DNA from: a virus
Strand: one strand, 5' to 3'
Virus record (IMG/VR): IMGVR_UViG_3300018080_000347
Location: 1-37,303 of that record
Length of the DNA stretch: 37,303 nt
How positions within the stretch are numbered: position 1 is the stretch's first letter; every line of letters begins with the position of its first letter. The notes below the pieces were generated by a model. The model had not been told where the DNA came from and did no database searches. It saw only the letters and a list, made by a program, of their open reading frames with translations. Of the stretch, positions 2,343 through 36,521 are shown in pieces. The translations under genes and the position numbers were made by a program.

Positions 2343-2344
2343 AA

Positions 2345-4191: not shown

Positions 4192-4204
4192 GAGAAAATA
4201 AACA

Positions 4205-5155: not shown

Positions 5156-5184
5156 ATATAAAGAAGTAAGGAGACAAGGAATCA

Positions 5185-5891: not shown

Positions 5892-5895
5892 CTTT

Positions 5896-6168: not shown

Positions 6169-6170
6169 AG

Positions 6171-6707: not shown

Positions 6708-6709
6708 AA

Positions 6710-6793
6710 ATGTCTATAAATCAAATAAATTGTTTGGTCGCCGTCTGCGCCGCGATTGTAATTGGAATCCCCGTTTTGAGATGGGTATTGTAA
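6710..6793 (+). CDS. Very small membrane peptide (27 residues)
   Basis: ATG at 6710 reads MSINQINC, then a hydrophobic stretch (LVAVCAAIVIGIPVL), ending RWVL and a TAA at 6791-6793. The reading frame fills the gap between the gpG-like gene and the next ATG at 6795 almost exactly, which is how real genes pack in this operon. No strong ribosome site is visible, so translation would depend on coupling. The function is unknown; a single membrane-spanning helix is the only feature. Confidence 0.4.
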   Translation: MSINQINCLVAVCAAIVIGIPVLRWVL

Positions 6794-6794
6794 A

Positions 6795-7277
6795 ATGAAG
6801 TGTGATATAGAAACGGTTGAGGCCGACTTGCTGAACTTGATAAAATCCAAGCTGCCGGCAAAACTGGCTGAAATCGATGCGGAGAAAGCGGACGGCGTTG
6901 TCCTGGATGTGCCGACTGACGAGCAATACTATAACAGCACTGATTTCGACGACAGAGTATTCAGCCAGGACTGGCTTGTCCGTTATGGCCTGGAAATGTC
7001 GGAGACGAATTCTATCACGTCGGCTACGGCTGAAGATAACACTTATATTTTTCTCGTGCAGTGGACAAACCTGAACGCACCGGAAGGTGATACAAGAAAA
7101 CGGCTTTTTCGTTATTCTCGTGCATTCAAGGAAATACTTGAAGAAAATTTTGACCGTTTTCCGTACATGTCAAAATTTAAAATTGTAACAATCGCCCCGG
7201 CCCTGTGGGCTGAAAATGCTCGTTCCCCGGTCTACAAGGTCGGCGGCGTGCGTCTAAAAACCGCTATCGCTTCTTAA
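6795..7277 (+). CDS. Putative tail terminator / tail-completion protein
   Basis: I do not recognise a diagnostic motif. The product is 160 residues, acidic and soluble, with an N-terminal helix (VEADLLNLIKSKLPAKLAEID) and a beta-rich second half that includes FLVQWTNL and RYSRAFKEILEENFD. This size and place, after the gp10-like gene and before the tube gene, is where the tail terminator (lambda gpU-type ring at the head-proximal end of the tail) usually lies. The call is by synteny. Confidence 0.5.
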   Translation: MKCDIETVEADLLNLIKSKLPAKLAEIDAEKADGVVLDVPTDEQYYNSTDFDDRVFSQDWLVRYGLEMSETNSITSATAEDNTYIFLVQWTNLNAPEGDTRKRLFRYSRAFKEILEENFDRFPYMSKFKIVTIAPALWAENARSPVYKVGGVRLKTAIAS

Positions 7278-7280
7278 ATT

Positions 7281-7478
7281 ATGCCTGAAGAACAAGAAAA
7301 AACGCCGGAATTGAGCGAGAAAGAGACTTTGCCCATCTCGCCGTTTTCCGGAAAAATCGCTAAAAAAGACTTTCGCTTTCAATTTAACAACAAGATTTAC
7401 GATATCAAGACAGGCGACGCGCTGGACGATATCCCGGAAATTCTTTTCCAGAACTTTAAAACCGAAAAAATAATATAG
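7281..7478 (+). CDS. Hypothetical small late protein
   Basis: The 65-residue product is highly charged, with an acidic N-terminus (EEQEKTPELSEKE) and a short beta-like stretch (FRFQFNNKIYDIKTGD). The family is unknown to me. It starts 3 bases after the previous stop and is followed by GGAGTC and the tube gene, so it belongs to the tail operon. Short genes of this kind between terminator and tube are common, with unclear roles. Confidence 0.55.
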   Translation: MPEEQEKTPELSEKETLPISPFSGKIAKKDFRFQFNNKIYDIKTGDALDDIPEILFQNFKTEKII

Positions 7479-7488
7479 GAGTCAAAAA

Positions 7489-8391
7489 ATGCCCTTAAGC
7501 AAGCCGAGAACATTATACGGGATTCATTCAATGACTCCCTACAATATAATTACGGGAAATCCTTACGGAACCTTCCGAGTCCTGGGAAACGCTTCTCTCA
7601 ATGTGACCGGCGAGCTGGTCACATTGACAGGCGGATCAGCCCCTTACCCCTGGTCGTCTCAGCCTGGCGCAAGCGCGGCGGAAATAGTTATGAGTCCGAA
7701 AGAAGTTCCGGATTTTCTTTTTCAATTGTTCCTGGGGGCAGTTCCCACGACTGTTGAAAATGCGGCTGGAAGCGTGGACGAATTCGCAAACAAACAAGGG
7801 ACAAGCGTCAATGACGCGACAACTGGTATTGCCAGTATTGGCGTTATCGCCGTTACCGGCGAAGCTAATCTGAAGTTCGGTAAATATACAGTTGTCGCGG
7901 TATCAGCGACGACAATTGATATATACGGACTGACTAATGTTGACTTTTTCAGGGGCGATGACCTGCAATATATAGATGACTCTCTAAAGTTGAACGATGC
8001 GCCTATCACGGTTCCAGGCACGGGCGGCACTGTTGATTTTTCCGACTTGGGAATTGTACTGACTGGCGGTTCTGGAGCTGTGGCGATGACGGTCGGCGAC
8101 ACTGCCGAATTTGAACTTAATCCGCCATCTCTCAAGAAAACTGAGGTGTTGGTCGGGCAAAACGGCGCATGTATTCAGGAATTCGGCGCGCTGATTTCTT
8201 CACAGAAGCAAACGGATGGCTCGATGTGGCTAATTGACTGCTTCAGGATAACCGCGCTTGGCTATCCGTTCGGCATGGCCGAAAAAGCCTTTAACGAAGG
8301 AGAGATCACGGCTAACCTGGTTTATGATTCTGATCAAGACGGCATTTTCAGAGCGCGACACATCATACCTGCAACCGGTTGCGGAAATTAA
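7489..8391 (+). CDS. Putative major tail tube protein
   Basis: The 300-residue protein is beta-rich and Gly/Thr/Val-rich, as in siphophage tube proteins. It begins with a Pro-rich arm followed by MTPYNIITGNPYG and has several alternating hydrophobic strands. GGAGTC stands 7 bases before the ATG. It lies after the probable terminator and upstream of the chaperones and tape measure, the canonical place of the tube gene. No sheath gene is present, so the tail is probably non-contractile. The call rests on position and composition. A baseplate or decoration protein is less likely. Confidence 0.6.
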   Translation: MPLSKPRTLYGIHSMTPYNIITGNPYGTFRVLGNASLNVTGELVTLTGGSAPYPWSSQPGASAAEIVMSPKEVPDFLFQLFLGAVPTTVENAAGSVDEFANKQGTSVNDATTGIASIGVIAVTGEANLKFGKYTVVAVSATTIDIYGLTNVDFFRGDDLQYIDDSLKLNDAPITVPGTGGTVDFSDLGIVLTGGSGAVAMTVGDTAEFELNPPSLKKTEVLVGQNGACIQEFGALISSQKQTDGSMWLIDCFRITALGYPFGMAEKAFNEGEITANLVYDSDQDGIFRARHIIPATGCGN

Positions 8392-8394
8392 GTC

Positions 8395-8715
8395 ATGAGC
8401 ACAAGACCTACGCAAAATTCAATTTACAGTTCGCGGACGAATGAATTATTCAATACGGTACAGGCGTTCGGAAGTATCCCCGCGAGCTTTGCTCCATTGC
8501 TTGATTTGGGAACGGATCAGTTTTCAACTACGCTGATGCTTTATAATTCAACGGATGTTGAAATGACGGTCCGATTTGCCGAGACTGGTAGTGAGTTAAA
8601 AGTTCCTGCGGGGATTGGTCCGGTTTTATATCCTTTCCCGCATAACGGGGTACTGGAATACAAATACAGTTCTGCCGTTCCTGGTTCAGGTTATTTTTAT
8701 ATTGTAAGCTGGTAA
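8395..8715 (+). CDS. Hypothetical tail-region protein
   Basis: The 106-residue product is beta-rich. An N-terminal polar arm is followed by strands such as FSTTLMLYNSTDVEMTVRF and VPGSGYFYIVSW. I do not recognise the family. It lies between the tube gene and the lectin-like gene, so it may be a small tail decoration or accessory protein. It starts 3 bases after the previous stop. Confidence 0.6.
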   Translation: MSTRPTQNSIYSSRTNELFNTVQAFGSIPASFAPLLDLGTDQFSTTLMLYNSTDVEMTVRFAETGSELKVPAGIGPVLYPFPHNGVLEYKYSSAVPGSGYFYIVSW

Positions 8716-8719
8716 AGAC

Positions 8720-9535
8720 ATGCCTGACCTATATTACGCGCTTCCTGCCGGGCTGACGAAGACTCTGAAGCCCGGAGGCGGTTTTTTTTCTGTGCAAACC
8801 GGCCCATTATTGCCAAAAGACATTGCAGGCTGCGTGTGCTGGCTGGACGGCTCCGACCCTTCGAAATTTATCTTGTCGGGAACAAATATCGACAGATGGA
8901 CAAGCTCGGAAGGGTTCAACGATGAGTTTGCTCCTTACGCAATAAGCCGTCCGAATTACAACGCGCTTACCGGAGCGGTAGAGTATCCGGTGCAAGGGCC
9001 GCAACTTGCCTGCGTTGACTGGAACAGGTTGAACAACGTTGACGATTTTACAATAGTGCTATTGGCCAGAATGATTTCAACTGACCCGAATGGTTTTTTC
9101 AGAGTATTTGTCGGCATCGACTCTGGCGGATCTGACACCGTTGTCCCGGTCCTTTGCGGACAAAGGGCTTTGGGAGGCGGAGACAACAGAGCGAGAATTC
9201 AGTATTCCGGGACGGGCGGCGGAGCTGGAACGCCTAACGACATTTTGACGTTTGGGCTTCCCGGTTTTTCGGGATCGTTGCAGACGATTGTTTATAAACA
9301 TCGCCGCAATGTTACGAATGGAGCTTCCGTGATTATTGACGGAGTTGAGACTCCCGCATTAGACACTACTATTGATCAGCCGCTTTTGAATACTCGAAAT
9401 CTCGTGTTAGGCGGAGCGATTTTCGATGATCCGGGTGGGATGATCGGAGAACTCCGTCAAAACGCAATTTATTCCCGCATTTTGTCAAATCCTGAAATCG
9501 CGGCGATATCTGCTTTTTACGACACTAAACGATAA
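8720..9535 (+). CDS. LamG/concanavalin-like carbohydrate-binding tail protein
   Basis: The middle and C-terminal parts follow the pattern of a concanavalin A-like (LamG/laminin G_3) jelly roll: CVCWLDGSDPSKF near residue 40, then FTIVLLARM, NLVLGGAIFDD, and the typical ending GELRQNAIYSRILSNPEIAAI. Such domains bind glycans or proteins and often decorate phage heads or tails. A position directly after the tube gene is unusual for a fibre, so a tail-tube decoration that binds the cell surface is a fair guess. AAGAC before the ATG is a weak ribosome site. Confidence 0.65.
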   Translation: MPDLYYALPAGLTKTLKPGGGFFSVQTGPLLPKDIAGCVCWLDGSDPSKFILSGTNIDRWTSSEGFNDEFAPYAISRPNYNALTGAVEYPVQGPQLACVDWNRLNNVDDFTIVLLARMISTDPNGFFRVFVGIDSGGSDTVVPVLCGQRALGGGDNRARIQYSGTGGGAGTPNDILTFGLPGFSGSLQTIVYKHRRNVTNGASVIIDGVETPALDTTIDQPLLNTRNLVLGGAIFDDPGGMIGELRQNAIYSRILSNPEIAAISAFYDTKR

Positions 9536-9554
9536 CCTGTTTTGGATAGTAATC

Positions 9555-9818
9555 ATGAATGACGTAGATGAAATAATAGCCGAACTGGAAGGCGGCAAAC
9601 AGGTTGTCCAGAGGGAGAGAGGAGAAAATTTTCTCGTGTTCTGGCTGCACGCGGGAAGCATAGATTATTTAGAATCTTTGGGATTCAATGAAGTGTTGCC
9701 TGAACAATGTCTCGCGGATATTCCAGATTGCCTGGGGAGATTAATGCGGACTGTGACGGAAGAAAAAACTTTGATTGGCTGGTTAACTTCTAAATCATGC
9801 CCCTTGGCTCAGGCATGA
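9555..9818 (+). CDS. Hypothetical small tail-operon protein
   Basis: The 87-residue product is acidic at the N-terminus (DVDEIIAELEGG) and has FLVFWLHAGSIDYL and IGWLTSK. I do not recognise it. Its 3' end lies inside a strong hairpin (9791-9822), and its TGA is in the second arm, so its translation could influence whether the hairpin forms. It is followed by the tail chaperone gene. Confidence 0.55.
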   Translation: MNDVDEIIAELEGGKQVVQRERGENFLVFWLHAGSIDYLESLGFNEVLPEQCLADIPDCLGRLMRTVTEEKTLIGWLTSKSCPLAQA

Positions 9819-9829
9819 TTTAACTAAAA
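9791..9829 (+). terminator. Terminator-like hairpin inside the tail operon
   Basis: TAAATCATGCC (9791-9801) and GGCATGATTTA (9812-9822) form a perfect 11-bp stem with a 10-base loop, followed by an A/T-rich stretch (ACTAAAATTTTA). The T run is not perfect, so it may act as a partial terminator or attenuator that sets the amount of chaperone and tape-measure message. It overlaps the end of the preceding gene. Confidence 0.5.
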
Positions 9830-9851
9830 TTTTATATATAGGGAACGTATA

Positions 9852-10325
9852 ATGACTTCAGCGATGAACCTTCAGGAACTTCAGCCGAAAGAGGTGAAGT
9901 TCACTGTCTCGGAAATAGAACTCACCTTAAGACCCTTCACTATAGCCGATGACTTGGCGGCTGAAATGCTGCTTGGCGGCAAAGAGAAAGTCTCGGAAGC
10001 TTTCGTGAATTGGGACGTTGAAAAACTTTCCTTGCTGGCCTGGCATCAACTGACGCTGGAAAGCCAAAAATCGGTTGTGGCGGCTGATATCGAAGCTGAA
10101 AAGATTGACCCTGATACTGGCGAAACAATCAAAGTCGATCTTACTCCGCTGCAAAAATTTCGTTCCCTTTTTTGGTCCGTGAAAGACAAGGCGCAATTAG
10201 TTAGAGTCCTTTGCAATTGTCGCGCGCTCAATATTCCTGAGCTTGACGACGTGGAGGGCCTGGGAAAGTGGCTAGAGGCGATCTTGCCGGTGATAAAAAA
10301 GCATCAAGAATTGACTGGTCAATAA
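9852..10325 (+). CDS. Tail assembly chaperone (G-type)
   Basis: The 157-residue acidic/helical protein lies immediately before a second overlapping ORF and the tape measure gene, the classic place of the lambda G chaperone. Features are KFTVSEIELTLRPFT, a helical middle region and an ending VIKKHQELTGQ. An A AAA AAG slippery heptamer at 10295-10301 lies 8 codons before its stop, allowing a -1 shift into the next ORF. GGGAAC 7 bases before the ATG is the ribosome site. It should bind the tape measure during tail assembly. Confidence 0.72.
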   Translation: MTSAMNLQELQPKEVKFTVSEIELTLRPFTIADDLAAEMLLGGKEKVSEAFVNWDVEKLSLLAWHQLTLESQKSVVAADIEAEKIDPDTGETIKVDLTPLQKFRSLFWSVKDKAQLVRVLCNCRALNIPELDDVEGLGKWLEAILPVIKKHQELTGQ

Positions 10326-10594
10326 TCTTCGACCTGATAGCGTCCGAGTACGGGTATACTTGGGAGCAATTCACAGGCATGACCTACAAAATTTTGGATG
10401 CCTGCCTTGAAGCGATACACAGGCGAACGCACAACAAAACAGCCGTGCTTGCTCAAATGCACGGTATAAAAATGGAGCTGTACGAAAAACGGCAAAAGAT
10501 AGCTCCGCCCTCAGAAAAAACTCTCAAGGCTGTAGATAAGCACATTTCAGACATACTCAAAGAGAAGCAGAAACAAGCGAAAAATAAGGCGTAG
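9852..10594 (+). CDS. Tail assembly chaperone G-GT fusion by -1 frameshift
   Basis: Reading shifts back one base at A AAA AAG (10295-10301): codons up to AAG at 10299-10301 are read in the first frame, and the second frame continues with GCA at 10301. The product is about 247 residues, 150 from the first ORF and 97 from the second. The second ORF is 29% identical to nothing I can name, but it is helical and Lys-rich, as in T-type extensions. The need for a fixed ratio of G to G-GT is well known in lambda; that it holds here is inference from the site and the gene order. Confidence 0.68.
10268..10594 (+). CDS. Tail chaperone T-type ORF (normally reached by frameshift)
   Basis: The frame is open from a GTG at 10268 to a TAG at 10592-10594. 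It overlaps the G-type ORF by 58 bases in the -1 frame. The part expressed after the shift starts at residue ~12 (ASRIDWSIIFDLIASEYG) and ends in a basic tail (KEKQKQAKNKA). No ribosome site precedes the GTG, so independent translation is doubtful. The stop abuts the tape measure ATG. Confidence 0.6.
   Translation: MARGDLAGDKKASRIDWSIIFDLIASEYGYTWEQFTGMTYKILDACLEAIHRRTHNKTAVLAQMHGIKMELYEKRQKIAPPSEKTLKAVDKHISDILKEKQKQAKNKA
10295..10323 (+). other. -1 ribosomal frameshift site (slippery heptamer plus hairpin)
   Basis: The heptamer A AAA AAG (10295-10301) is in the right phase with the G-type frame (ATA AAA AAG). After an 8-base spacer, ATTGA (10310-10314) can pair with TCAAT (10319-10323) around the loop CTGG, which places the zero-frame stop in the stem. 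The hairpin is short and weak, so most of the effect would come from the heptamer. Confidence 0.7.
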
Positions 10595-13500
10595 ATGGCT
10601 AAAGATAATGAGCTGATAATCAGAATTAACGGCAATATTCAGGGCTACAAGGACGCTCTGTCTAAAGCCGGAAAAGAGACTGCAGCTCTACAGGATACCT
10701 TTAACACGATAGCCAAAACGGGGGCGATAGCCTTTGCCGGATTCACGGGGACAATCGCGCTCGCTACAGCTCAATTTGCCGAGTTTGACAACGGGCTAAG
10801 AGGAGTCAAAACTCTGCTTGATGAAACCAGCTTCGCAACTGGCACTCTTGACGAGAACTTCCAAAAGCTTTCTGGTGACGCGCTTGGAGCATTGACTGAG
10901 TTTCCCGTTACACTGCAGGCCGTCAACAAATCCCTTTTCGATATCGTTTCAGCCGGGGTCAACGCCGAAAAAGCGATTGGAGTTCTGGGAAGCACGTCGC
11001 GCTTGGCCGTCGCCGGTATAACTTCGGCGGCGGTGGCGACAGACGGCGTAACGTCCGCCTTGAACGCTTACGGACTTGAAGCTGAACAAGCGGAACTTGT
11101 CGCGGCCAAGTTTTTCACTGCTCAGAAGTTTGGAAAGACGACGATTGCGGAACTTTCAAGTTTTTTCGGGGAGGCTGCCAGTTCAGCCCAGTCTTACGGC
11201 GTTTCGCTTGAAGAACTGCTCGCGGCGGTGTCGGCGGCGACAACGGGAGGAATCAAGACCGCTCAGGCATACACATCTGTAACTGCAGTATTAAGCAATG
11301 TAGCTAAGCCAACGAGGGAGGCGGCTGAAGAGGCTGAAAGGCTCGGTATTGAATTCAATTCAACTTCCCTTAGAGCGAAAGGACTTGAAGGTTTTTTGAA
11401 TGAGCTTACAAGCGCGCAGGACTTCAATAAACAGTCAGTTGAAAGATTATTCGGATCAGTTGAGGCTCAAAAGCTTATTTTTTCCTTAACGGGCGAGCAG
11501 GCCGGAAAATTCAAAGAAACTTTAGATGCCCTTTCCGATTCTCAACAGCTTCTGACGACCTTCACTAACGCTTACGAGGAGCAAAGTCAGAGCCTCAAGA
11601 ATCAGCTCGTAATTTTAGGGAATAACTTTCAAGCGCTCAATATTCTGGTAGGCGCGAACCTTGCGCCAAACGTTACTGTGCTGACGACCGCGACAACTAA
11701 ATTTCTAAAGCTTCTTCAGCAGAATCCCGCTCTGGCCGAATTTATTTCCAAACTGGTTTTGGCCGGAACGGTGACGGCGGCTTTAACGGCTGCCGTCGGT
11801 CTCTCGGGAATCGCTATTTTGAAGTTTCGGGCGGCTCTGATTGCTTCTTCAGCCGCTACGAAAGGTTTGACGCTTGCTACAAAAAGCTTGCTTGGCTCTA
11901 CCGGTCTTGGTCTGTTTATCGCGTTCCTGCCCGAAATAGTCCAGCTTCTGGATAATAGCCTGATTCCGGCGCTTGGCCTTACTGCCGTAGGGTTCTACAA
12001 GACACTAAAGGCGGTACAGGCCGCGACGACAGCAGTAAATGGGATGCGTGTCGCCATTAAAGGGTTGCTGATTCAAACCGGGCTAGGGCTTTTAATTGCT
12101 TTTTTGCCAGAGATCATTCAACTAATCGAGAAGTTTTTTGGCGACACGAACGAGGCGACGGCTAAAGGCACGGCGGAACAAAAACGGCTTCTTCTTCAGC
12201 AAGAGAAAGACCAAAAAGCGATCTACACGGCCAGGCTGCGAGGCGCGACGGAGCAGGAGCTTGAATTTCTGAGAAGAAAGCAGGAGCTGAGAGCGAAAGA
12301 AAACGCTTTAGAAAAGATCGCAGACGAGGATATAAAGCGGACTAAGCTTATTAATCTTAGATTGCTTCAGGAACAGCTTTTAAAAGAAGAAAGTGCGTAT
12401 CAGGAAGAACGTCAAAAAGAACGACAGGCGGCTGCGCAAAAAGAGTCTGAGACTGAGAAGAAGGTCGTTGACTCAAAACTTGAGGCTCTCAGGAATGAAA
12501 ACGAGAGAATTCAAGCTTTCTTGTCCGAGCAAAGCAGCGAAGAAATTGCTTTTCTGAAGCGGCGTCAAGGCCTAAAAACGAAGCAGAGAGAGGCCGAAGC
12601 GGAGCAGGACGAGCGACGAAGGGCGGCGGCTCTGGAAAATGTCAAACTTCTAAATGAACAGCTCATCAAAGAAGAACAGGATTTTTTCACTGAACAGGAA
12701 AAGATCAAAGCCGAAAAATCAGCAAAAGACGAAGAGGAGAGGCAAAAGGAAGAAGGCGAACGACAGAAAAGAATTCAAGGCCTGAAAGATGAAAGCGAAG
12801 CTCTAAGGGCTTCCTTTGACGACCAGAAAAAGCAAGAAGCCGCTTTTCTTCAGCAGCGTCAGGATATCAGAGAACAGGCGCGAGCAATTGAAAGCATCAA
12901 AGATGCTGAAGAGCGCGAAGCTGCTATTGAAAATTTAAGGCTTAAGCAAACTGCGCTGGCGATCGCCGAAGCTGAATACTTCGCTCAACGCTCGGAGCTT
13001 AGACGCGAAGAAGAAGAGCGAGAGATCGCTATAGCAGACGAGCTGGCCGCACTGGATGCCGAAAAGCGTAAAGCTCTACGAGATCAGGAATTACAGGAAT
13101 TGCGGGACTCTTTCGAGAGTAAAGAGAAAATTCGTTCTCAGGCGGTCAAAAAAGAAATTCTGGCTATCAGAAAAGAGAATCAGCTCAGAGCTAAAGATGA
13201 AGAGAAATTCGGCAAGACGATTGCCGCGATAAAGGCTTTTTTTCGAAAAGAGGAATTCCAGAACGCTCAACAGGCTTTGTTTGCTCTGACGCAGCTTCAA
13301 CGCTCTGAAAATGCGGTACAACAAGCTATCGGCAAGGCGGCGGCCCTGGTGCAAATCACAATCGACACGCAGCGCGGCGCTACGGCGGCTTACTCGGCTT
13401 TGGCCGGAATACCGGTCGTTGGGCCGGCGCTCGGTGCGGCGGCGGCTACAGCCGTAATCGCTTACGGAGCTGAAAGAGCTATTCAGGTGCAGAAAGCGCA

Positions 13501-13774
13501 GCAAGGCGGAATTGTCGCGGGAACTGGTTTCGGTGATCGAATTCCATTTCTGCTTGAACCGGGCGAGCTGATAACCCCACGCCAAAACTTCGAGGAGGTC
13601 GTCAACGCCGTGGCTGATCAGCGAGCGGTGCGGCGCGAGACTGAAGAGGTCGAAGAAGAAGCGGAAGCAAGGCGCGTTGAGGTGATAATCGGTTTTCAGG
13701 ACAACGCGGCTGACTTCCTGACGGTGCGGCAAAATGAGGATAGATTTTCGGGAACTTCTCAAAGGATAGGATAA
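10595..13774 (+). CDS. Tail tape measure protein
   Basis: At 1059 residues this is the longest gene in the window. It starts directly after the chaperone stop. The N-terminal third has the TP901-type tape-measure core with GITSAAVATDGVTSALNAYG, quoted as such, and a segment TAVLSNVAKPT around residue 230. Hydrophobic segments occur near 430-450 and 490-510 and share GLGLxIAFLPEIxQL, a visible internal duplication. Residues ~545-830 hold three coiled-coil repeats of about 95 residues, each starting EExAFLxxRQ-like. The C-terminal ~100 residues have a Gly/Ala-rich hydrophobic segment (IPVVGPALGAAAATAVIAYG). It sets tail length and probably enters the host envelope. Confidence 0.88.
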   Translation: MAKDNELIIRINGNIQGYKDALSKAGKETAALQDTFNTIAKTGAIAFAGFTGTIALATAQFAEFDNGLRGVKTLLDETSFATGTLDENFQKLSGDALGALTEFPVTLQAVNKSLFDIVSAGVNAEKAIGVLGSTSRLAVAGITSAAVATDGVTSALNAYGLEAEQAELVAAKFFTAQKFGKTTIAELSSFFGEAASSAQSYGVSLEELLAAVSAATTGGIKTAQAYTSVTAVLSNVAKPTREAAEEAERLGIEFNSTSLRAKGLEGFLNELTSAQDFNKQSVERLFGSVEAQKLIFSLTGEQAGKFKETLDALSDSQQLLTTFTNAYEEQSQSLKNQLVILGNNFQALNILVGANLAPNVTVLTTATTKFLKLLQQNPALAEFISKLVLAGTVTAALTAAVGLSGIAILKFRAALIASSAATKGLTLATKSLLGSTGLGLFIAFLPEIVQLLDNSLIPALGLTAVGFYKTLKAVQAATTAVNGMRVAIKGLLIQTGLGLLIAFLPEIIQLIEKFFGDTNEATAKGTAEQKRLLLQQEKDQKAIYTARLRGATEQELEFLRRKQELRAKENALEKIADEDIKRTKLINLRLLQEQLLKEESAYQEERQKERQAAAQKESETEKKVVDSKLEALRNENERIQAFLSEQSSEEIAFLKRRQGLKTKQREAEAEQDERRRAAALENVKLLNEQLIKEEQDFFTEQEKIKAEKSAKDEEERQKEEGERQKRIQGLKDESEALRASFDDQKKQEAAFLQQRQDIREQARAIESIKDAEEREAAIENLRLKQTALAIAEAEYFAQRSELRREEEEREIAIADELAALDAEKRKALRDQELQELRDSFESKEKIRSQAVKKEILAIRKENQLRAKDEEKFGKTIAAIKAFFRKEEFQNAQQALFALTQLQRSENAVQQAIGKAAALVQITIDTQRGATAAYSALAGIPVVGPALGAAAATAVIAYGAERAIQVQKAQQGGIVAGTGFGDRIPFLLEPGELITPRQNFEEVVNAVADQRAVRRETEEVEEEAEARRVEVIIGFQDNAADFLTVRQNEDRFSGTSQRIG

Positions 13775-14649
13775 TGGGAGTTACGGGCGGTATTAAATTT
13801 TTCGATATCAATTTGGCGGACAGTCAACGCTTTGAGACGGAGGCCGGAGCGACAAGCGGTGCTGACTCCGCGCCTTTCGTGCTGGATAGAAACTATTATA
13901 CTGTTTGGCGGTCTGTCGGCTCTGACGATCTTACGACCGAAACGCTGACTATCACAATTCCGATAGGCCAGAACAGGAACTTTAACCGGATTTTCCTTCT
14001 GAATCATAACTGGAAAGAGTATAATGTTCAATATTTCGACACTATCGGTTACGTAGATTTCACGAATGTCATAAGCGTCAACGGCGATACAAAGAGCGCG
14101 ATCAGCGAGACTGACTATGCTCGAAATTCGTCTTATTATGAGTTCGATACGGTCAATACAAGTACGATTTTCCCGGGAGTAGGCTTTCTCTTGAGAATTC
14201 AGGTCACCAAAACGCAGACGGCAAATCAGGAAAAATTTCTTAATTCCGTCGTCATGGCTGACGAACTTGGAACGCTCTTAGGCTTCCCGATAATATCCCA
14301 GGTGACGAAAGACAAAAACAACCGGGAAAATAAGTTGCTCAACGGCCGCGTGGATGTGGAAAAATCCCTGGAAGTCTTCAATCCTATTCAGATAGACTTC
14401 AAGAACTATCCGCCAGGCCTTAATGAAGACTTGGATTTGATTTACAGCCTGTTTGACCGTGATGTTCCTTTCTATGTCTCGCTTTGCGGCGGACGCGCCG
14501 GCGATCCGTATTTCAAATATGCGCTCCGGGGTTTTCGGCTTGAAGATTTGCCGCTTGTCCAGGTGACGAACAAGTACAAGGATAAATATAGAAAGAATCT
14601 ATATAACTCCATGGTGGATTTAAAAATGATTTTGAAAGAGGCTGGATAA
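13774..14649 (+). CDS. Putative distal tail (Dit-like) protein
   Basis: The 291-residue protein follows the tape measure directly (shared A at 13774), where the distal tail hub component is expected. It has beta-rich N-terminal strands (TLTITIPIGQNRNFNRIFLLNHNW), an arrangement like a galactose-binding or tail-tube fold, and a C-terminal half with GRVDVEKSLEVFNPIQIDF and DRDVPFYVSLCGGR. I cannot place it in a named family by motif, so the call is positional. Confidence 0.5.
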   Translation: MGVTGGIKFFDINLADSQRFETEAGATSGADSAPFVLDRNYYTVWRSVGSDDLTTETLTITIPIGQNRNFNRIFLLNHNWKEYNVQYFDTIGYVDFTNVISVNGDTKSAISETDYARNSSYYEFDTVNTSTIFPGVGFLLRIQVTKTQTANQEKFLNSVVMADELGTLLGFPIISQVTKDKNNRENKLLNGRVDVEKSLEVFNPIQIDFKNYPPGLNEDLDLIYSLFDRDVPFYVSLCGGRAGDPYFKYALRGFRLEDLPLVQVTNKYKDKYRKNLYNSMVDLKMILKEAG

Positions 14650-14650
14650 T

Positions 14651-14812
14651 ATGTTGCTGCCGCCTTTACCGCCTAAGCATCCACGACAAACGCGGGCAGA
14701 ATATCAAAAAATGATAGAGCAACGGTTGTCCAAAGCCTTGTTTATGGGAGTTATCGAGATTGTTGTAATAATTGCCGGTATAGCGGCTTTTGTTCTGCCT
14801 ATAGTATTATGA
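14651..14812 (+). CDS. Small membrane protein between tail-tip genes
   Basis: The 53-residue product starts MLLPPLPPKHPRQTRAEYQ and ends in a clear transmembrane helix (GVIEIVVIIAGIAAFVLPIVL, about 20 residues). It begins one base after the preceding stop, and its TGA overlaps the ATG of the next gene as ATGA, so it is tightly built into the operon. The function is unknown. Its tail-tip neighbourhood would fit a small protein acting at the membrane during DNA entry or assembly. Confidence 0.65.
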   Translation: MLLPPLPPKHPRQTRAEYQKMIEQRLSKALFMGVIEIVVIIAGIAAFVLPIVL

Positions 14813-16029
14813 GAGTCGAACAGGTCTTTATAACTCCGCTCGTCTCCGAGGGCGTGTACGGGGACGAAATCGAAGTCTCAGACTACGTCAAACTCGACGG
14901 TCTGAGTAAAGTCAAAAATTCGATTGACTCAACTGACTACTCAATCGGAATTTTTCGTTTCGACGACGTAACCCTGAAATGCCAGAACGGACAAGGAACT
15001 TTCAACGAGAACGACTCACGCTCTATTTTTACTTATGTGCGCGATCGTGCTAAGGTAAAGATACAAGCTTTGAAGATTGACTCGGAGACTTTCGTAAGCG
15101 AAGAAAAAATACAGTTTGAAGGGCTAATCAACGACGAAATGACCAGGCTGAACATCACGAATGACGAAATAACGCTGAAGGTCTACTCGAAAGATTCAGT
15201 TTTCAGAACAACCAGGGTTCCGGCTGGAATAATCCCGGCTGGCAGCACGGCGAAAACGGCTTTAATCAGCATTTTGTCTCAACCGGCTATTGGCGTAGTT
15301 CTGAACCTTGACCCGGCTGATATTAACCCGGAACTGGACTTTATTATTGACACTCCGGAAGCACTCGACAACTTGGAAGTCAAGGAAGCTTTAGACTTGA
15401 TTTTAATAGCTTCCAGTTCAGTCCTGATTTTGGAGGATGACGACATAATTGTCAGGAGCCGGAACAGAGACACGGGAACGCCTCTTGAACTTCGGGGACG
15501 CGGAGAAATCAGCAACAACGCGAACTTAATCAGCTTGAAAAACTACAACAACGGCAAGCAAAGACAGTTCAACTCAATCTACCTGAACGACGGAGCGGCT
15601 GTCATCGAGGATACAAATTCTATCCTTGAGTCTGGAGTCAGGCAAATCAAATTCGACTTCCCTATGATCGCCGACTCTGGAACGCTTCAGGATGTCGGGC
15701 AATCCATCGCTGATGAATTCAGATACCCCAAGATCGAGGTCATGGCGGAAGTGCCGGCTGTCGTAGCTGAAGATGTAAAATTGCTTGATCTGGTAAGCGT
15801 TGACGCTCCTTTTCTGAAAAAACCGGCTGAAGGCGATTTTCTACCGGTCTACGGTGTAGCGACTTACGGAGACGCGGTCACGCCTTACCCCCTGACTTTT
15901 GGAAGTATTGAAATAACGAGCAACATCAAATTTAAAGTCATCTCGATAGAGAAAGACCTGAAGAACTTCAGAACGGCTTTGAAGCTTCGACAATTTGGAA
16001 AAAACTTAAACGACGGCGTTTTTACGTAG
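14809..16029 (+). CDS. Putative baseplate hub / tail-tip protein
   Basis: The 406-residue beta-rich protein includes YVKLDGLSKVKNSIDSTDYS, then DVTLKCQNGQGTFNEN, and a later region with a VKEALDLILIASSSVLILEDDDIIVRS-type helix-strand unit, quoted in part as VLILEDDDIIVRS. This layout (an N-terminal strand region, a binding domain, then a repeat of the same fold) is typical of siphophage tail hub proteins of the gp27/Tal-N type. The motifs are not decisive. ATGA overlap with the small membrane gene shows translational coupling. Confidence 0.55.
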   Translation: MRVEQVFITPLVSEGVYGDEIEVSDYVKLDGLSKVKNSIDSTDYSIGIFRFDDVTLKCQNGQGTFNENDSRSIFTYVRDRAKVKIQALKIDSETFVSEEKIQFEGLINDEMTRLNITNDEITLKVYSKDSVFRTTRVPAGIIPAGSTAKTALISILSQPAIGVVLNLDPADINPELDFIIDTPEALDNLEVKEALDLILIASSSVLILEDDDIIVRSRNRDTGTPLELRGRGEISNNANLISLKNYNNGKQRQFNSIYLNDGAAVIEDTNSILESGVRQIKFDFPMIADSGTLQDVGQSIADEFRYPKIEVMAEVPAVVAEDVKLLDLVSVDAPFLKKPAEGDFLPVYGVATYGDAVTPYPLTFGSIEITSNIKFKVISIEKDLKNFRTALKLRQFGKNLNDGVFT

Positions 16030-16033
16030 CAAA

Positions 16034-18121
16034 ATGGGACTAGATACTTTAATTGATCGCAGCAACGGTCAAATCATAGATGCCGATCACATCAACCGGC
16101 TGAATCGAGTCTTAAAGGGCGATTTTGTAGGGCGGGACGGATCAGGCGCGCCAACTCCAGGACAAAATTTAGGAACTCCTTCTATTCCCTGGGGGACTGG
16201 AAGATTCAATAATCTCGTGATAGACGGCTTGCCGGTTGACCCTTCCGAGATTGCCGGGCAACCAAATCAGGTCATATCAGGCGCGGTTCGTTCAACTTCC
16301 GAGTTTCCAGCTTATCTTGACAGAAATGCATCGGGGCGCACCTTTACGATTTTAGGGGCCGCTACGTCTTTAATTTATGACGTAAACGGCGTTACAGCCG
16401 AGATTGACACTGATATAATATCATCTGTTCTACCAGCTCCCGCAGCTACAAATAATACCTGTCAGGTCAATGACGCTTCCTTGACAGGTCAGGACGATAC
16501 GCGATTTTTGGGAGAGAACGGCACGTTCATAACGGTCGATAATATGCAAAGCGAACTCACAAGTAAAATTGGTGAGTTCGTTATTTTGTTCAATCAATCT
16601 ACATTGGAGTGGTTTTATTGTCGTATCGCTTCGAATATTCGTCTTGATTATTGCCGTCGCGGATTCATGTTTGTTGACCCTGATACGCCTAATCCTGCTC
16701 AAGTACTCAATAATAATGATGTTCTTGAATTATTCAATTTAGGTTATATCTTCGCTGAAGATGACGGAAGTACTATCGATGTTACTTTTACAGCTCCGGT
16801 TATAGGGGGAGATGAGCCTGCAAGTCCTGCGACAGGCGATTATTGGTATGATTTCGATTTGAACGTTTGGAAACGTTACAACGGGTCAATATTTGAACAG
16901 ATAAATAGAGCTTTTATTGGCTATGTGGGAGTTGAAGCAACAAGCACTCTGGTAAGGCCGGAATACTTCGGTAAAGGCTACAGGGACATTAATTCACTGA
17001 CAATAAGGCTGCAAGATACCGACACGGTCATTTCTGAAAAACCTGATTTTGATGTTCACACGAATGGCCAGGACCGAAGATTTGATTTTGATTTTTTCCG
17101 GTGGTCCGCTTCGACTGACTTTGAAACTGGATTTACCAGAACGCCTGATCGTAATTATTGGCTTTATCTCACCGAGGATGGAAAACCGAAGATTTCAGGT
17201 TATAAGCCTTATGACAATATTGGATTTCTTCGGGGATGGTATCACCCGCATAATAGCTGGCGAGCGGTCGGTCAGGTCTACAATAACGCCTCTGATGAGT
17301 TTGAACTTGTAAATGATTCTGATACAAAGCTTAATAACATTCAGGAATCATTAGTTATTGGCACGCTTCCGCGAATAATTTTGTCGCATACGGGAAACGT
17401 CATAAACGGAACGGAAGGGCAGTTTATTCTAGATGACAATACCGGACAATTCAAAGCGTCTGCTTTGTCAAAAAATATTAATGCGACTTGGCAACAGGGA
17501 AATGGAAATGGAGCTAACCCTGGATTAACCTTAACGGCTTTCACCTATTATAAATATTTTATTCTTTCTGATGCTCAGGGATTGATTTTTGACGCGGGGA
17601 TAGACACTGTTCAGGCAGCAACTAATTTATTAAATTATGCTGCGGTGAAAAGCGCGGGACTGACAAAAGCGTCATATCAAGGCGAGTTCGCGCTTGATGG
17701 CGCACTGAATATTATCCCTTTCTATCAAGAAAAAAATTCGCGGTGGTTTTGGTTTAATCCTCGCTTGCAATTATGGAATATCCCAAATTACGCAACTGTC
17801 GGACCATCACCAATTTTACGGCTGGCTGGTTCTCCTTTTGATTATAAGCATAAAGCTAAAATTAATATTTTGCACATAGGAAGCGGGTCAATAACTGAAA
17901 TGATTTTTGATGACCCTGATTTAACCGCGTCTACGCCTGGTCCTCAAAATGCTAATTTTGTAAGCAATCTTCCCGCTCCTACTGCTCGCCCAATGGTTGC
18001 CGAGCTGGACATCGTCACGAATGCGAGCGGGTTGATCAGAGAATCATACGCGGGCGCACCGACTGGTGGGATACATGTTGGTTATGCAGTAGGGTATGAA
18101 AATTTACGATTAAAAGAATAA
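16034..18121 (+). CDS. Putative tail fibre / receptor-binding protein
   Basis: The 695-residue protein starts with a conserved-looking attachment region (GLDTLIDRSNGQIIDADHIN) that contacts the tail tip in similar phages, followed by short Gly/Asn/Asp-rich repeats, a GDYWYDFDLNVWKRYNG segment and a long beta-rich C-terminal half. It is followed by a DUF4376-like gene, which often stands beside fibres. The N-terminal part likely binds the phage and the C-terminal part the host receptor. Codon use is more A/T-rich after ~16570 than before it, which may mark an exchanged receptor-binding half. Confidence 0.6.
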   Translation: MGLDTLIDRSNGQIIDADHINRLNRVLKGDFVGRDGSGAPTPGQNLGTPSIPWGTGRFNNLVIDGLPVDPSEIAGQPNQVISGAVRSTSEFPAYLDRNASGRTFTILGAATSLIYDVNGVTAEIDTDIISSVLPAPAATNNTCQVNDASLTGQDDTRFLGENGTFITVDNMQSELTSKIGEFVILFNQSTLEWFYCRIASNIRLDYCRRGFMFVDPDTPNPAQVLNNNDVLELFNLGYIFAEDDGSTIDVTFTAPVIGGDEPASPATGDYWYDFDLNVWKRYNGSIFEQINRAFIGYVGVEATSTLVRPEYFGKGYRDINSLTIRLQDTDTVISEKPDFDVHTNGQDRRFDFDFFRWSASTDFETGFTRTPDRNYWLYLTEDGKPKISGYKPYDNIGFLRGWYHPHNSWRAVGQVYNNASDEFELVNDSDTKLNNIQESLVIGTLPRIILSHTGNVINGTEGQFILDDNTGQFKASALSKNINATWQQGNGNGANPGLTLTAFTYYKYFILSDAQGLIFDAGIDTVQAATNLLNYAAVKSAGLTKASYQGEFALDGALNIIPFYQEKNSRWFWFNPRLQLWNIPNYATVGPSPILRLAGSPFDYKHKAKINILHIGSGSITEMIFDDPDLTASTPGPQNANFVSNLPAPTARPMVAELDIVTNASGLIRESYAGAPTGGIHVGYAVGYENLRLKE

Positions 18122-19835: not shown

Positions 19836-19928
19836 GTTATATGGCCGTTTTTCGAGCGTTTTTAACAAGCCATGTCTGAGTATTGGCGGCGTTTGAGTTT
19901 GCTGTTTTAAGGCCATATAACTGTTTTT
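19836..19928. terminator. Bidirectional terminator between converging operons
   Basis: GTTATATGGCC (19836-19846) and GGCCATATAAC (19911-19921) are perfectly complementary over 11 bp and enclose a 64-base loop. On the plus strand the second arm is followed by TGTTTTTTA, and on the minus strand the outer bases read GTTTT. It lies between the late operon end (19807) and the end of the minus-strand block (19928). The large loop is unusual for an intrinsic terminator. Confidence 0.6.
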
Positions 19929-20335
19929 TAAATATCTGATATTACTTGCTTTTTAGAAGTGTAACCTTTCAGAAGCTGGACGTACAGATTGACGAGATTT
20001 TCCAGTTCGTTAATAGAAATCTTGTCGATATCCGGCTTTTCAAGAGAGTAGATATCCGGAAGCTTGCATAATAGTCTAAGCTTTTCGCAATACTCATTGT
20101 ATTTCGCCGTCTGGTCTTTGCTAAGATCAAGCTCCAGGTACGAAGATTTCCAGCTATCACCTATTTCATTAAGAGATTGCTTGCTGAATTTGCGCTCTCC
20201 GTATGCGTCCTCGATCATGCACTGCGTCTTGGTCGTTCTGGTTATTTCACGAATAACAAAAAACCATCTGCGGTCATAATAATCTCCCACCAACTCACGA
20301 AGTAAAACTTTGTCTCCAACTTTTATTTCATGCAT
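19928..20335 (-). CDS. Hypothetical protein with N-terminal SH3-like beta part
   Basis: The first ~50 residues look like a small beta barrel (VGDKVLLRELVGDYYDRRWFFVI), followed by a helical C-terminal half with conserved-looking LPDIYSLEKPDI and many Leu/Lys. I do not recognise the family. The start overlaps the HNH gene by 13 bases, so it is the last gene of the minus-strand operon. Confidence 0.6.
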   Translation of the reverse strand: MHEIKVGDKVLLRELVGDYYDRRWFFVIREITRTTKTQCMIEDAYGERKFSKQSLNEIGDSWKSSYLELDLSKDQTAKYNEYCEKLRLLCKLPDIYSLEKPDIDKISINELENLVNLYVQLLKGYTSKKQVISDI

Positions 20336-24915: not shown

Positions 24916-24941
24916 GGGCGGAAATTTTCCGCCCCACTTTT
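24916..24941 (+). terminator. Hairpin between recT and the MBL gene
   Basis: GGGCGGAA (24916-24923) pairs with TTCCGCCC (24927-24934) around a 3-base loop, followed by CACTTTT. The T run is short, so it may be a weak terminator or an mRNA-stabilising hairpin that lowers expression of the MBL gene. Confidence 0.45.
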
Positions 24942-24955: not shown

Positions 24956-25660
24956 ATGAACATCAAAACTATCGCAAGCGGCTCGAAGGGCAACTGCTAC
25001 ATAGTCGAGCATGAAGGCGAGCGGCTTATTCTTGAGTGCGGCGTGAAGCTTGACGATATCAGGAAAGCCCTTGATTTCGACTTCAGCAATGTAGCCGGCT
25101 GCCTAATCAGTCACGAGCACAAAGACCATGCTTTGTCTGTTGAAAAGCTTTTGAGAAATACGCCGATCAAAGTTTTTGGGCCGCCTTCTAGGATGCTTAT
25201 AGATGCCGTCGGCGAACTTGGGTACGTGGCAATGTCGCCAGGATGCTATACGAAATTTAGCGGGGACTCTCAATTTATGATTTATCCATTTTGCGGAACT
25301 CATGATGTTGAGTGCTATTCGTACCTGATCCAGGCCGGCGAAAAGCGTCTTTTTTTCGCCTCGGATACCTCCAGTGTCCCCTTTATAAAATATAACGCGG
25401 TTACTCATTTGATGATTGAAGCTAATCATTCCTTCGCTATCATGTCGGACTCGGAGATGACCCCAAAACTCAAGCAGCGAGTATGGGATTATCATATGGA
25501 TATTCAGGGAGCCGTCAAGTTTGCGAAAGAGCACAAGAATTCTCTTGATGAGGTTCACCTATTGCATTTGAGTAACGAGCATTCCGACGAGGAGCTGTTT
25601 AAAAAAATGATGGTGGAGGCGGTCGGAGTGCCGGTTTATGTCGCCGGTAATAACTGTTGA
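24956..25660 (+). CDS. MBL-fold metallohydrolase (YycJ-like, probable nuclease)
   Basis: The 234-residue protein has HEHKDH (53-58), GTHD (His116), FASDT (Asp137) and IEANH, the metal-binding set of the metallo-beta-lactamase fold. Phage members near recT and an SbcC-like gene are usually grouped with the YycJ/WalJ DNA exonucleases. Its place here suggests a nuclease working with the ATPase and RecT, as a RecE/RecT-type or SbcCD-type end-processing set. That role is inference. A strong promoter begins over its stop codon. Confidence 0.78.
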   Translation: MNIKTIASGSKGNCYIVEHEGERLILECGVKLDDIRKALDFDFSNVAGCLISHEHKDHALSVEKLLRNTPIKVFGPPSRMLIDAVGELGYVAMSPGCYTKFSGDSQFMIYPFCGTHDVECYSYLIQAGEKRLFFASDTSSVPFIKYNAVTHLMIEANHSFAIMSDSEMTPKLKQRVWDYHMDIQGAVKFAKEHKNSLDEVHLLHLSNEHSDEELFKKMMVEAVGVPVYVAGNNC

Positions 25661-25685
25661 CAGATAGATGCTGCAAGCATACAAT
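25657..25685 (+). promoter_or_regulatory. Near-consensus sigma70 promoter of the small RNA
   Basis: TTGACA (25657-25662), a 17-base spacer and TACAAT (25680-25685) match the consensus at 11 of 12 positions. The -35 overlaps the stop codon of the MBL gene. Transcription should start near 25691-25693. The dyad CAAGCAT / ATGCTTG (25674-25680 and 25691-25697) overlaps the -10 and start, so a repressor could bind there. Confidence 0.7.
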
Positions 25686-25690
25686 AAGAC

Positions 25691-25858
25691 ATGCTTGTAT
25701 TAAGCGTCAAATTCGTCCGCCTAAGTCGTACCTTGCGCGGCGGGTGAATCGGTCCTGCTTTAAAACCTGCAGGCTTAAAAGGAGGCGCGCAAGACACTTA
25801 TCATAATGGATAAGCTTGAAAATGGTAATACCCGGCATACATGGCCGGGTATTTTTTT
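25691..25858 (+). ncRNA. Putative structured small RNA with its own terminator
   Basis: Between the promoter and the terminator lie about 135 bases with no convincing ORF but several perfect dyads. These are CTTGCGCG / CGCGCAAG (25732-25739 with 25786-25793), CCTGC / GCAGG inside it (25754-25758 with 25769-25773), and CTTATC / GATAAG (25797-25802 with 25809-25814). CCGCC (25717-25721) with GGCGG (25739-25743) would make a pseudoknot with the first stem. TTAAGC (25700-25705) can close on GCTTGA (25814-25819). AAGGAGG at 25779-25785 is a perfect Shine-Dalgarno match, but the next ATG is 20 bases away. I do not recognise a known RNA family. The RNA would be about 168 bases. Confidence 0.55.
25827..25858 (+). 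terminator. Strong intrinsic terminator
   Basis: AATACCCGGC (25827-25836) and GCCGGGTATT (25844-25853) form a perfect 10-bp stem with loop ATACATG, followed by an unbroken T run to 25857. It ends the putative small RNA and the recombination operon. Confidence 0.85.
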
Positions 25859-25883
25859 AATACTCTAAATGCTACCGGCATAC

Positions 25884-26168
25884 ATGGCGACAACAGTAAA
25901 AATAAAATCAGACAAGCTTCTGAAAAGGCTGGATGCTATCCAGTCTCAGTACGGGTTGGAAACACGGCAAAACACGGCAATTATCCTGCTCCGCAAAGCT
26001 ATTGATTTTGTAGAGTGCAACGGCTGGGAGGAAATCCTAAAGCTGCCGACTCGAAAAATACAGGAGAGCTGCGAGCATGAGAGCGGCGAATTTTTTCAGA
26101 AGATAGAAAATCGCGAGAAAAAGCAATATATGAAGTGCTTAGATTGCGGATTTATTCAGAGAATATAA
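25884..26168 (+). CDS. Hypothetical protein with C-terminal Cys/His cluster
   Basis: The product (94 residues from ATG 25884, 99 from ATG 25869) has an N-terminal strand-helix-helix-like part (TTVKIKSDKLLKRLDAIQ) that may be a ribbon-helix-helix and a C-terminal cluster CEHE...CLDCG resembling a zinc ribbon. I do not recognise a family. The first five codons include a 14-base copy of the terminator loop region. It opens the next plus-strand operon. Confidence 0.55.
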   Translation: MATTVKIKSDKLLKRLDAIQSQYGLETRQNTAIILLRKAIDFVECNGWEEILKLPTRKIQESCEHESGEFFQKIENREKKQYMKCLDCGFIQRI

Positions 26169-31264: not shown

Positions 31265-31970
31265 GAAAGCCGGATTCGAGACGGCCGCATTCTGCGAAAT
31301 AGACGAGAATTGCCATAATGTCTTGAGTAGAGAGTTTCCTCACGTTCCCATTTACAAAGACATCAAAAAATTTAACGCCGGCGATATTGGTCACGTTGAC
31401 GTGGTAACGGGTGGTTTTCCGTGTCAGGGGCTTTCAATTGCCGGACTTCAGAGAGGAATACGCGATGACGACAGATCAAATTTGTGGTGGGACATGCATG
31501 GAATCATTCGCCAAGTACGACCGAAATTCGCGGTTATGGAAAACGTCCCAAATTTCCTTCGCGAAGGGAACGGAACTTGGTTTGGCGACTTTCTCGGGAG
31601 CCTGGCCGAAATCGGGTATGATGCGGAATGGAAATGTATATCAGCAGCAGACGTCGGCCTCCCGCATCTCCGGGAAAGGGTCTGGGTTGTTGCCTACCCC
31701 ATTGGCGTCAGATTGGATGCCGCTATTTTTAACAAAATCAGCCTGCAGGAATACTTTAAAAAACAACCCCCGCTTCCCAAAATTATCAACTCTCCTGAGA
31801 GCGGCTGGCGTTTATCCTGGAATATTCCCGAACATCTACGAATGGATAATGGGGTACCCCTCGGACTGGACGAAATTAAAGCGAGGGTAAAGATGATGGG
31901 CAATGCGATAGTCCCGGAGATAGCTTATCTGATAGCGAAGGAAATAAGAAAGTTTTTGGAGGAAATATGA
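31212..31970 (+). CDS. DNA cytosine-5 methyltransferase (small Dcm type)
   Basis: Motif I LDLFAGSGGFSLGF (4-17), motif IV GGFPCQG (Cys71 nucleophile), motif VI ENV (110-112), motif VIII RERVWVVAYP (154-163) and motif X GNAIVPEIA are all present. It transfers a methyl group from S-adenosylmethionine to C5 of cytosine, probably to protect phage DNA. At 252 residues it is short, because the target-recognition region (~165-225) is small. A second ORF lies in the +1 frame within it. The last ~24 codons recur at 32873-32943. Confidence 0.88.
   Translation: MKILDLFAGSGGFSLGFKKAGFETAAFCEIDENCHNVLSREFPHVPIYKDIKKFNAGDIGHVDVVTGGFPCQGLSIAGLQRGIRDDDRSNLWWDMHGIIRQVRPKFAVMENVPNFLREGNGTWFGDFLGSLAEIGYDAEWKCISAADVGLPHLRERVWVVAYPIGVRLDAAIFNKISLQEYFKKQPPLPKIINSPESGWRLSWNIPEHLRMDNGVPLGLDEIKARVKMMGNAIVPEIAYLIAKEIRKFLEEI
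31465..31890 (+). CDS. Overlapping +1-frame gene inside the methyltransferase
   Basis: ATG at 31465 with GAGAGGA 7 bases upstream opens a 141-residue frame to 31890, wholly inside the methyltransferase gene. It reads ICGGTCMESFAKYDRN, WKTSQ, WPKSGMMRNGNVY, RISGKGSGLLPTPLASDW and YEWIMGYPSDWTKL. I recognise this as the pattern of phage proteins annotated as methyltransferase-related. The motifs are the shifted reading of conserved methyltransferase motifs: EIGYDAEWK gives KSGMMRNG, and LPHLRERVWVVAYP gives RISGKGSGLLPTP. Translation is supported by start, ribosome site and motif match only. Confidence 0.5.
   Translation: MTTDQICGGTCMESFAKYDRNSRLWKTSQISFAKGTELGLATFSGAWPKSGMMRNGNVYQQQTSASRISGKGSGLLPTPLASDWMPLFLTKSACRNTLKNNPRFPKLSTLLRAAGVYPGIFPNIYEWIMGYPSDWTKLKRG
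31893..31963 (+). repeat. Methyltransferase 3'-end repeat, copy 1
   Basis: This is codons MMGNAIVPEIAYLIAKEIRK and on to LEE of the methyltransferase, including the GGAGGA ribosome site used by the following gene. A second copy at 32873-32943 differs by four third-position changes. Confidence 0.92.
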
Positions 31971-32848
31971 AAGGATATAAAGTTTTTGATCAAAACTGGC
32001 GATGCAAAGATTTTAAATACGAAATCGGCAAGACCTATAAAACAGATAAAAAAATAGTTTTATGTAAAGAAGGTTTTCATTTCTGTGAAAAATTAGTGGA
32101 TTGCTTTAATTATTATGAATTCAATCCGAATAATAAGGTCGCTATTATTGAAGCAAGAAATGACATCATTAAAGGTGATGATAAACACGTCACAAATGAA
32201 ATTGAAATAATTAAAGAACTCACTTGGCATGAAGTTTTAGACATAGTGAACGTTGGAAAAGACAACACAGGCTACAGTAATAGCGGCCACAGTAATAGCG
32301 GCCACAGTAATAGCGGCCACAGTAATAGCGGCCACAGTAATAGCGGCCACTGGAATAGCGGCGACAGTAATAGCGGACACAGTAATAGCGGCGACAGGAA
32401 TAGCGGCGACTGGAATAGCGGCTACAGGAATAGCGGCGACAGGAATAGCGGCTACTGGAATAGCGGCTACTGGAATAGCGGCCAAGGGAATAGCGGCGAC
32501 TGGAATTCAAGCAATTATGAGACTGGATTCTTTAATTCACGGCAATCAAACATTATAAATGTATTCAATAAACCCTGCGAACGTAAAGTGTGGGAAGAAT
32601 CAAAAAAACCAGATTTTATATTTTTCAACGTCACTCAATGGGTATCGGAATCAGATATGACTGAACGGGAAAAAGAAGACAACCCTAATTGTAAAACAGC
32701 CGGCGGCTATTTAAAAACGCTTGAATATAAAGAAGCTTGGCGTTTGGCTTATGAATCAGCTACGCAGGAAGATATTGAACTTCTAAAAGCTTTGCCGAAT
32801 TTCGACGTTGATGTTTTTGAAGAAATTTCAGGAATACGAGTAGACTAG
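31967..32848 (+). CDS. NSG-pentapeptide repeat protein (DUF7666-type)
   Basis: The N-terminal ~95 residues (YKVFDQNWRCKDFKYEIGK, CKEGFHFCEKLVDCFNYY) resemble a phage domain I know as DUF7666. Residues ~100-181 are about 16 copies of a 5-residue unit NSG(H/D/Y)(S/R/W), coded by a 15-base unit. The C-terminal ~110 residues end with a helical part (LKTLEYKEAWRLAYESA). Similar proteins are frequent in phages, with unknown roles; the repeats may form a stacked helix. It starts by ATGA overlap with the methyltransferase and is flanked by the 3'-end repeats. Confidence 0.7.
   Translation: MKGYKVFDQNWRCKDFKYEIGKTYKTDKKIVLCKEGFHFCEKLVDCFNYYEFNPNNKVAIIEARNDIIKGDDKHVTNEIEIIKELTWHEVLDIVNVGKDNTGYSNSGHSNSGHSNSGHSNSGHSNSGHWNSGDSNSGHSNSGDRNSGDWNSGYRNSGDRNSGYWNSGYWNSGQGNSGDWNSSNYETGFFNSRQSNIINVFNKPCERKVWEESKKPDFIFFNVTQWVSESDMTEREKEDNPNCKTAGGYLKTLEYKEAWRLAYESATQEDIELLKALPNFDVDVFEEISGIRVD
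32269..32510 (+). repeat. Tandem 15-base repeat array
   Basis: About 16 units of (A/T)(G)(T/G)AATAGCGGC(C/G/T)AC type code for NSGxx pentapeptides. The first five units are almost identical and later units vary at the first and last codons. Other frames and the opposite strand are also open across the array, which follows from the repeat itself. Confidence 0.92.
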
Positions 32849-36286: not shown

Positions 36287-36290
36287 AAGA

Positions 36291-36509
36291 TTAATCGCTG
36301 AATGTTTTTATAAATAATTCAACTGTACTGGGAGACGAATGATCAAGCAGAAACTCGATCATCTCCAGTGGCTTTGAAATAATCGTTTTCTGCCGACGCT
36401 TGATTCTTTCAACCGTCGACAATGAGCAATCGACAAATTTAGCGAATTTTTTGTCGGTATTTTGAAGCGTCATATACTTCAAACTTTCAATTGTGGTTGG
36501 TTTTTTCAT
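36291..36509 (-). CDS. Small helix-turn-helix protein
   Basis: The 72-residue product has DKKFAKFVDCSLSTVERIKR, then a basic RRQKTI region, resembling a helix-turn-helix with the recognition helix STVERIKRR. The remainder is a short helical segment. It could be a regulator of the converging terminase or of the junction operon. The family match is moderate. It is the last gene of the minus-strand group at the right end. Confidence 0.55.
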   Translation of the reverse strand: MKKPTTIESLKYMTLQNTDKKFAKFVDCSLSTVERIKRRQKTIISKPLEMIEFLLDHSSPSTVELFIKTFSD

Positions 36510-36521
36510 GTTTTATATGTT

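Follow-up and report, generated by a model that had tools for sequence, protein, structure and literature searches.

The DNA analysed here comprises the 37,303 bases of a virus record, referred to as the window, and contains phage portal, head and terminase genes as well as a gene for RecT. Between a gene encoding an MBL-fold protein and a small gene downstream of it, a promoter and a terminator enclose a stretch of non-coding sequence, which raises the question of what purpose an RNA made from this interval would serve. An earlier note had described it as a free-standing structured small RNA. Our analysis instead leads us to propose, at about even chances, that the interval supplies the downstream gene with a promoter and with a structured 5' leader that ends in a terminator, an interpretation that draws on sequence-based evidence from the promoter, the terminator, the lack of space for a second promoter and the presence of TTGACA in both carriers of a homologous gene. 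The features of the locus are collected in Table 1.

Table 1. Positions of the features of the locus, numbered from the first base of the window.
Feature	Position	Strand	Remarks
MBL-fold gene (phrog_392)	24956-25660	+	upstream neighbour of the RNA interval
Sigma-70-type promoter, TTGACA-17-TACAAT	25657-25685	+	11/12 consensus matches; overlaps MBL stop codon
Dyad CAAGCAT-N10-ATGCTTG	25674-25697		7-bp perfect, across -10 box; operator-like; weak by itself
Predicted leader or small RNA, ~168 nt	25691-25860	+	start ±2 nt from promoter geometry
Pseudoknot stem S1, 11 bp	25711-25749	+	25711-25721 with 25739-25749
Pseudoknot stem S2, 7 bp	25732-25793	+	25732-25738 with 25787-25793; abuts S1 directly
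Hairpin CCTGC/GCAGG	25754-25773	+	in long pseudoknot loop
AAGGAGG	25779-25785	+	Shine-Dalgarno-like; no normally spaced start codon
Hairpin CTTATC/GATAAG, 6 bp	25797-25814	+	
Intrinsic terminator	25827-25858	+	10-bp stem, 7-nt loop, seven T
CCGGCATACATGGC, copy 1	25832-25845	+	inside terminator
CCGGCATACATGGC, copy 2	25875-25888	+	includes start codon of downstream gene
Downstream gene, 94 aa	25884-26168	+	ribbon-helix-helix-like by pattern alone

Promoter, terminator and the gap between them

The promoter had been assigned to a position across the stop codon of the MBL gene, where both of its hexamers and the 17-nucleotide spacer are found. Among the 70 promoter-like sites of the window (29 + 41), two score 11 out of 12, and this is the only one of them on the + strand. 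For dyads such as the one crossing its -10 box, the background was taken from 80-bp pieces drawn at random from the window: out of 2000, 288 have arms of at least 7 bases, 93 of at least 8 and 11 of at least 11. The perfect 10-bp terminator that was thought to end a unit of about 168 bases is equally present: positions 25827-25836 pair with 25844-25853, seven T occupy 25852-25858, the hairpin has an energy of -16.1 kcal/mol, and its stem contains the most pairs among 39 terminator-like sites in the window. CCGGCATACATGGC, one copy of which is embedded in this terminator, is an exact 14-base direct repeat with no further copy at up to two mismatches in the window.

The enclosed gap of 223 bases ranks third in length in the window according to our own gene list and shows the lowest folding z-score (-3.11) among the six longest gaps folded, a value to which the terminator contributes much. 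Another non-coding gap with a low z-score (-2.32) is located at 36287-36521, and the RecT and MBL genes are separated by a gap that contains a GC-rich hairpin at 24916-24934 (GGGCGGAAAATTTCCGCCC on the - strand). As had been stated, the interval holds no convincing open reading frame, its content being restricted to a 20-residue ATG frame (25806-25868) and unsupported + strand frames of 49-54 residues. Weighed as leader ORFs, neither the 20-residue frame nor one of 18 residues (25691-25747, read by eye) is supported, with a leaderless version of the latter beginning at the predicted start site being possible. Elsewhere in the window, positions 19928-20335 of the - strand show a weak match to Phage_ProQ_C_like (E 0.00098, under the Pfam cut-off), possibly indicating a phage RNA-binding protein, and 31967-32848 of the + strand encode a DUF7666 domain fused to pentapeptide repeats immediately after a cytosine methylase gene.

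That the top + strand promoter and the top terminator of the window bracket the same non-coding interval, and that the terminator tail is T-rich, would also be expected of an independent trans-acting phage sRNA, a cassette of promoter, RNA and terminator placed between two genes, whose targets would be RNAs or proteins of host or phage and whose terminator would insulate its neighbours. Phage sRNAs are known, with lambda PreS as an example in sections of PMC12197685. We consider this possibility less probable than a leader, yet a serious rival to it. Antisense targets within the window are not supported: a duplex scan of 43 gene starts in the window revealed no convincing target, the best duplex (-29.1 kcal/mol at 28296), which was equalled by 0 of 30 shuffles, being bulged, partly anti-Shine-Dalgarno-like and the best of 43.

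Folding of the RNA

The 8-bp stem CTTGCGCG/CGCGCAAG, the inner hairpin CCTGC/GCAGG and the 6-bp hairpin CTTATC/GATAAG described in the earlier note are all found in the interval, and all parts named there are present at, or no more than a few bases away from, the coordinates given. These nested stems compete with each other, as the minimum-energy fold of 25691-25860 omits the 8-bp stem, which is included in the fold of 25691-25930. With its terminator, the 170-nt RNA is more stable than its shuffles (z = -2.58), an excess that originates from the terminator, since after its removal the nested fold becomes ordinary (z = -0.78 for 25691-25826 with 109 of 500 shuffles at least equally stable, and z = 0.06 for the core 25691-25791 with 254 of 500).

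A different picture is obtained for the CCGCC/GGCGG pairing, which had been suggested to form a pseudoknot. This pairing extends to the 11 bp of S1 and, combined as S2 with CTTGCGCG/CGCGCAAG, of whose 8 bp 7 are used, defines an H-type pseudoknot with zero bases between its stems and loops of 10 and 37 nt. Its summed stacking of -33.8 is matched by 1 in 1000 dinucleotide shuffles and is the highest obtained when the window is cut into 548 non-overlapping pieces, whereas a denser control of 8094 overlapping pieces from the window and 12 loci contains 8 other places that score at least as high, one of them in the window with an S1 of 4 bp. The pseudoknot is thus suggestive, with less support from this broad control than from the shuffles. 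The score takes no account of loop geometry, and in several of the control pseudoknots the loops, at 2-3 nt, are probably too short to span the stems. In our view, the H-type pseudoknot, the strongest structural feature of the RNA, is likely but unproven.

The same numbers bear on the possibility that the locus consists of a plain promoter and terminator, with structure in the spacer arising by chance. The ordinary nested fold without the terminator, the equal scores at 8 places in control DNA and the failure to find relatives would all agree with such a scenario, yet the pseudoknot had been proposed ahead of testing, its score is rarely reached in shuffles and several of the competing control cases are geometrically strained, and we thus regard it as rather unlikely.

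The AAGGAGG motif is located, as had been noted, without a normally spaced start codon, the next ATG at 25806 beginning 20 nt past the motif, and its proposed role in binding 16S rRNA has found no support. We assign a low probability to the idea that the pseudoknot together with this Shine-Dalgarno-like loop represents a new class of cis-regulatory RNA, which at the head of an operon would sense a ligand, the state of the ribosome or a phage protein to set read-through of the terminator. Control of termination had been proposed to proceed via pairing of GTATT with AATAC of the terminator stem. Pairing of upstream sequence with the two terminator arms is at chance level, with 190 and 86 of 500 shuffles being equally good, so this form of control is unsupported. 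Since no antiterminator pairing beats shuffles, no switch is visible, and the mutually exclusive antiterminator that characterizes attenuators and riboswitches was not found.

Relation to the downstream gene

In its longest frame, the downstream gene opens with ATG 25869. From an alignment with two homologues, its true start is probably ATG 25884. The protein has no match to a Pfam family, its structure model contains two helices at low confidence (mean pLDDT 61.4), and a fold search gave no match at E 0.001; by its sequence pattern, it looks like a ribbon-helix-helix regulator. The gene starts 25 bases beyond the T run, which ends at 25858, a distance into which no promoter would fit, and its expression would therefore depend on read-through, either from the promoter at 25657 or from further upstream.

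The two homologues, the only ones identified in viral contigs, start at 15344 in L070, a locus of a phage relative whose major head protein is 76% identical, and at 3007 in L079. In both cases, an exact TTGACA precedes the start by 62-64 bases (at 15282 and 2943, respectively), a hexamer that is scarce on the + strand, with 4 occurrences in 19.4 kb of L070 and 3 in 6.2 kb of L079. The -10 elements are less clear at these sites, neither of which was listed in promoter scans. Both promoter regions contain inverted repeats, of 8 bp in L070 and 11 bp in L079. The latter, a perfect and operator-like repeat (TTGACAATATA...TATATTGTCAA, 2943-2989) just 5' of the gene, is the only dyad that is notable by itself compared to random 80-bp pieces, and the dyad sequences of the window, L070 and L079 are not alike. 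The window shares the arrangement of TTGACA and inverted repeat, with about 165 extra bases in front of the gene, whereas in L070 and L079 neither a comparable RNA nor a terminator nor a long leader is found between TTGACA and the gene.

Because there is no space after the terminator and because TTGACA is located upstream of both homologues, we provisionally assign the promoter to the downstream gene, in a comparison of leaders that encompasses two homologous loci. The earlier description of the RNA as free-standing is thus retained in part: a discrete terminated RNA follows naturally from the promoter and terminator, but as an independent unit it would leave the downstream gene promoterless, whereas the homologues have TTGACA about 60 nt upstream. 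The absence of the unit at the corresponding place in relatives would suit an independent sRNA. Two further points weigh against a leader: the terminator, being strong, would be as appropriate for the end of a transcript as for attenuation, and the downstream gene could be transcribed from the upstream operon instead.

If the interval acts as leader, RNA polymerase would start near 25691 and the nascent RNA would fold, probably as the H-type pseudoknot. The majority of transcripts would presumably stop at the terminator to yield the ~168-nt product, while the fraction that reads through, possibly in a regulated manner, would serve as mRNA of the downstream gene, which would head a phage transcription unit. 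The terminated short form could be a stable RNA with an additional role, possibly as sRNA.

Search for relatives and comparison with known systems

Relatives of the RNA, by sequence or structure, were found in none of the phages, plasmids, virus records and loci searched, and the present account thus builds on a single sequence. Distant blastn searches returned nothing from the plasmid collection and, from the phage collection, only short matches with E values of about 0.9 and above. DNA searches of virus records gave 0 of 16 in one set and 3 of 34 in a second, the latter matches covering 14-34 bases at E 0.01-0.1. Neither blastn nor nhmmer detected an RNA relative in 70 loci, and, leaving the window aside, a covariance model built on the single sequence found no credible relative in 52 loci and 27 records; its best two off-target matches (L035 and G031) overlap open frames, with 6 of the 11 S1 pairs lost in G031. 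The 12 matches of a 17-base core in viral contigs are attributed to chance, their surroundings, read by eye, being unlike the interval beyond the pattern and the longest extension comprising 25 bases at 92% (in L054). Relatives of the MBL gene were located at 42 loci, and in the 31 whose 3' flank was read by eye (11 were left out) no such RNA unit is present and the next gene usually follows immediately. The near-identical record L068 spans positions 379-17172 of the window only, and a search of genome contigs for prophage relatives gave 0 for both the major head protein and the downstream protein.

The claim that no named family has this layout is borne out by Rfam 15, which gave no window match at the gathering threshold and contains no fitting family; STnc240, the best match below threshold (27.3 bits vs 55), spans the last hairpins only and is not credible. 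No account of such an RNA was found in the literature on phage sRNAs, put RNA, pseudoknot attenuation and P4 CI/C4 RNAs, as covered mostly by open-access papers. Type III toxin-antitoxin RNAs consist of tandem repeats followed by a terminator and a ToxN-like gene; the interval contains no tandem repeats and the downstream protein belongs to no Pfam family. The P1 c4 and P4 CI RNAs are structured RNAs in the leaders of phage operons, a property that the candidate would share, although it has no credible Rfam match. c4 RNA is named in sections of PMC12197685. With lambda PreS and similar sRNAs, the candidate has in common that it is a short non-coding phage RNA, here without evidence for a target or Hfq.

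The put RNA of phage HK022 resembles the candidate in its location, as a structured RNA immediately after an early promoter and before terminators. By analogy to putL, the interval, placed just 3' of a promoter and 5' of a terminator and genes, could form a nascent-RNA antitermination element that allows polymerase to pass the adjacent and later terminators. We find this quite improbable, since put, as described in parts of PMC9378689, is about 70 nt long, contains two stem-loops and is present twice, as related copies that each belong to one early promoter. The RNA described here is ~168 nt long with several stems, its promising structure is a pseudoknot, and neither DNA nor model searches identified a second copy in the window.

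A closer parallel in layout is provided by IsrK of the Salmonella prophage Gifsy-1, where, according to sections of PMC4825925, part of the transcripts pass the sRNA's own terminator, the short form acts in trans and an antiterminator gene is part of the system. Both loci combine a phage-borne promoter, a short RNA, an intrinsic terminator and small genes downstream, which in the window, judged by layout alone, have no promoter of their own. Read-through, trans action and the antiterminator gene have been shown for IsrK, whereas for our candidate partial read-through is predicted and a pseudoknot is probable, the two sequences having been compared via Rfam only. As in IsrK, a short RNA and an mRNA would share one promoter. 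If real, the interval would encode a phage leader RNA of no described family, whose pseudoknot and neighbouring terminator could control an operon, and it would join IsrK and put among the few phage loci where the RNA itself decides on the readout of genes.
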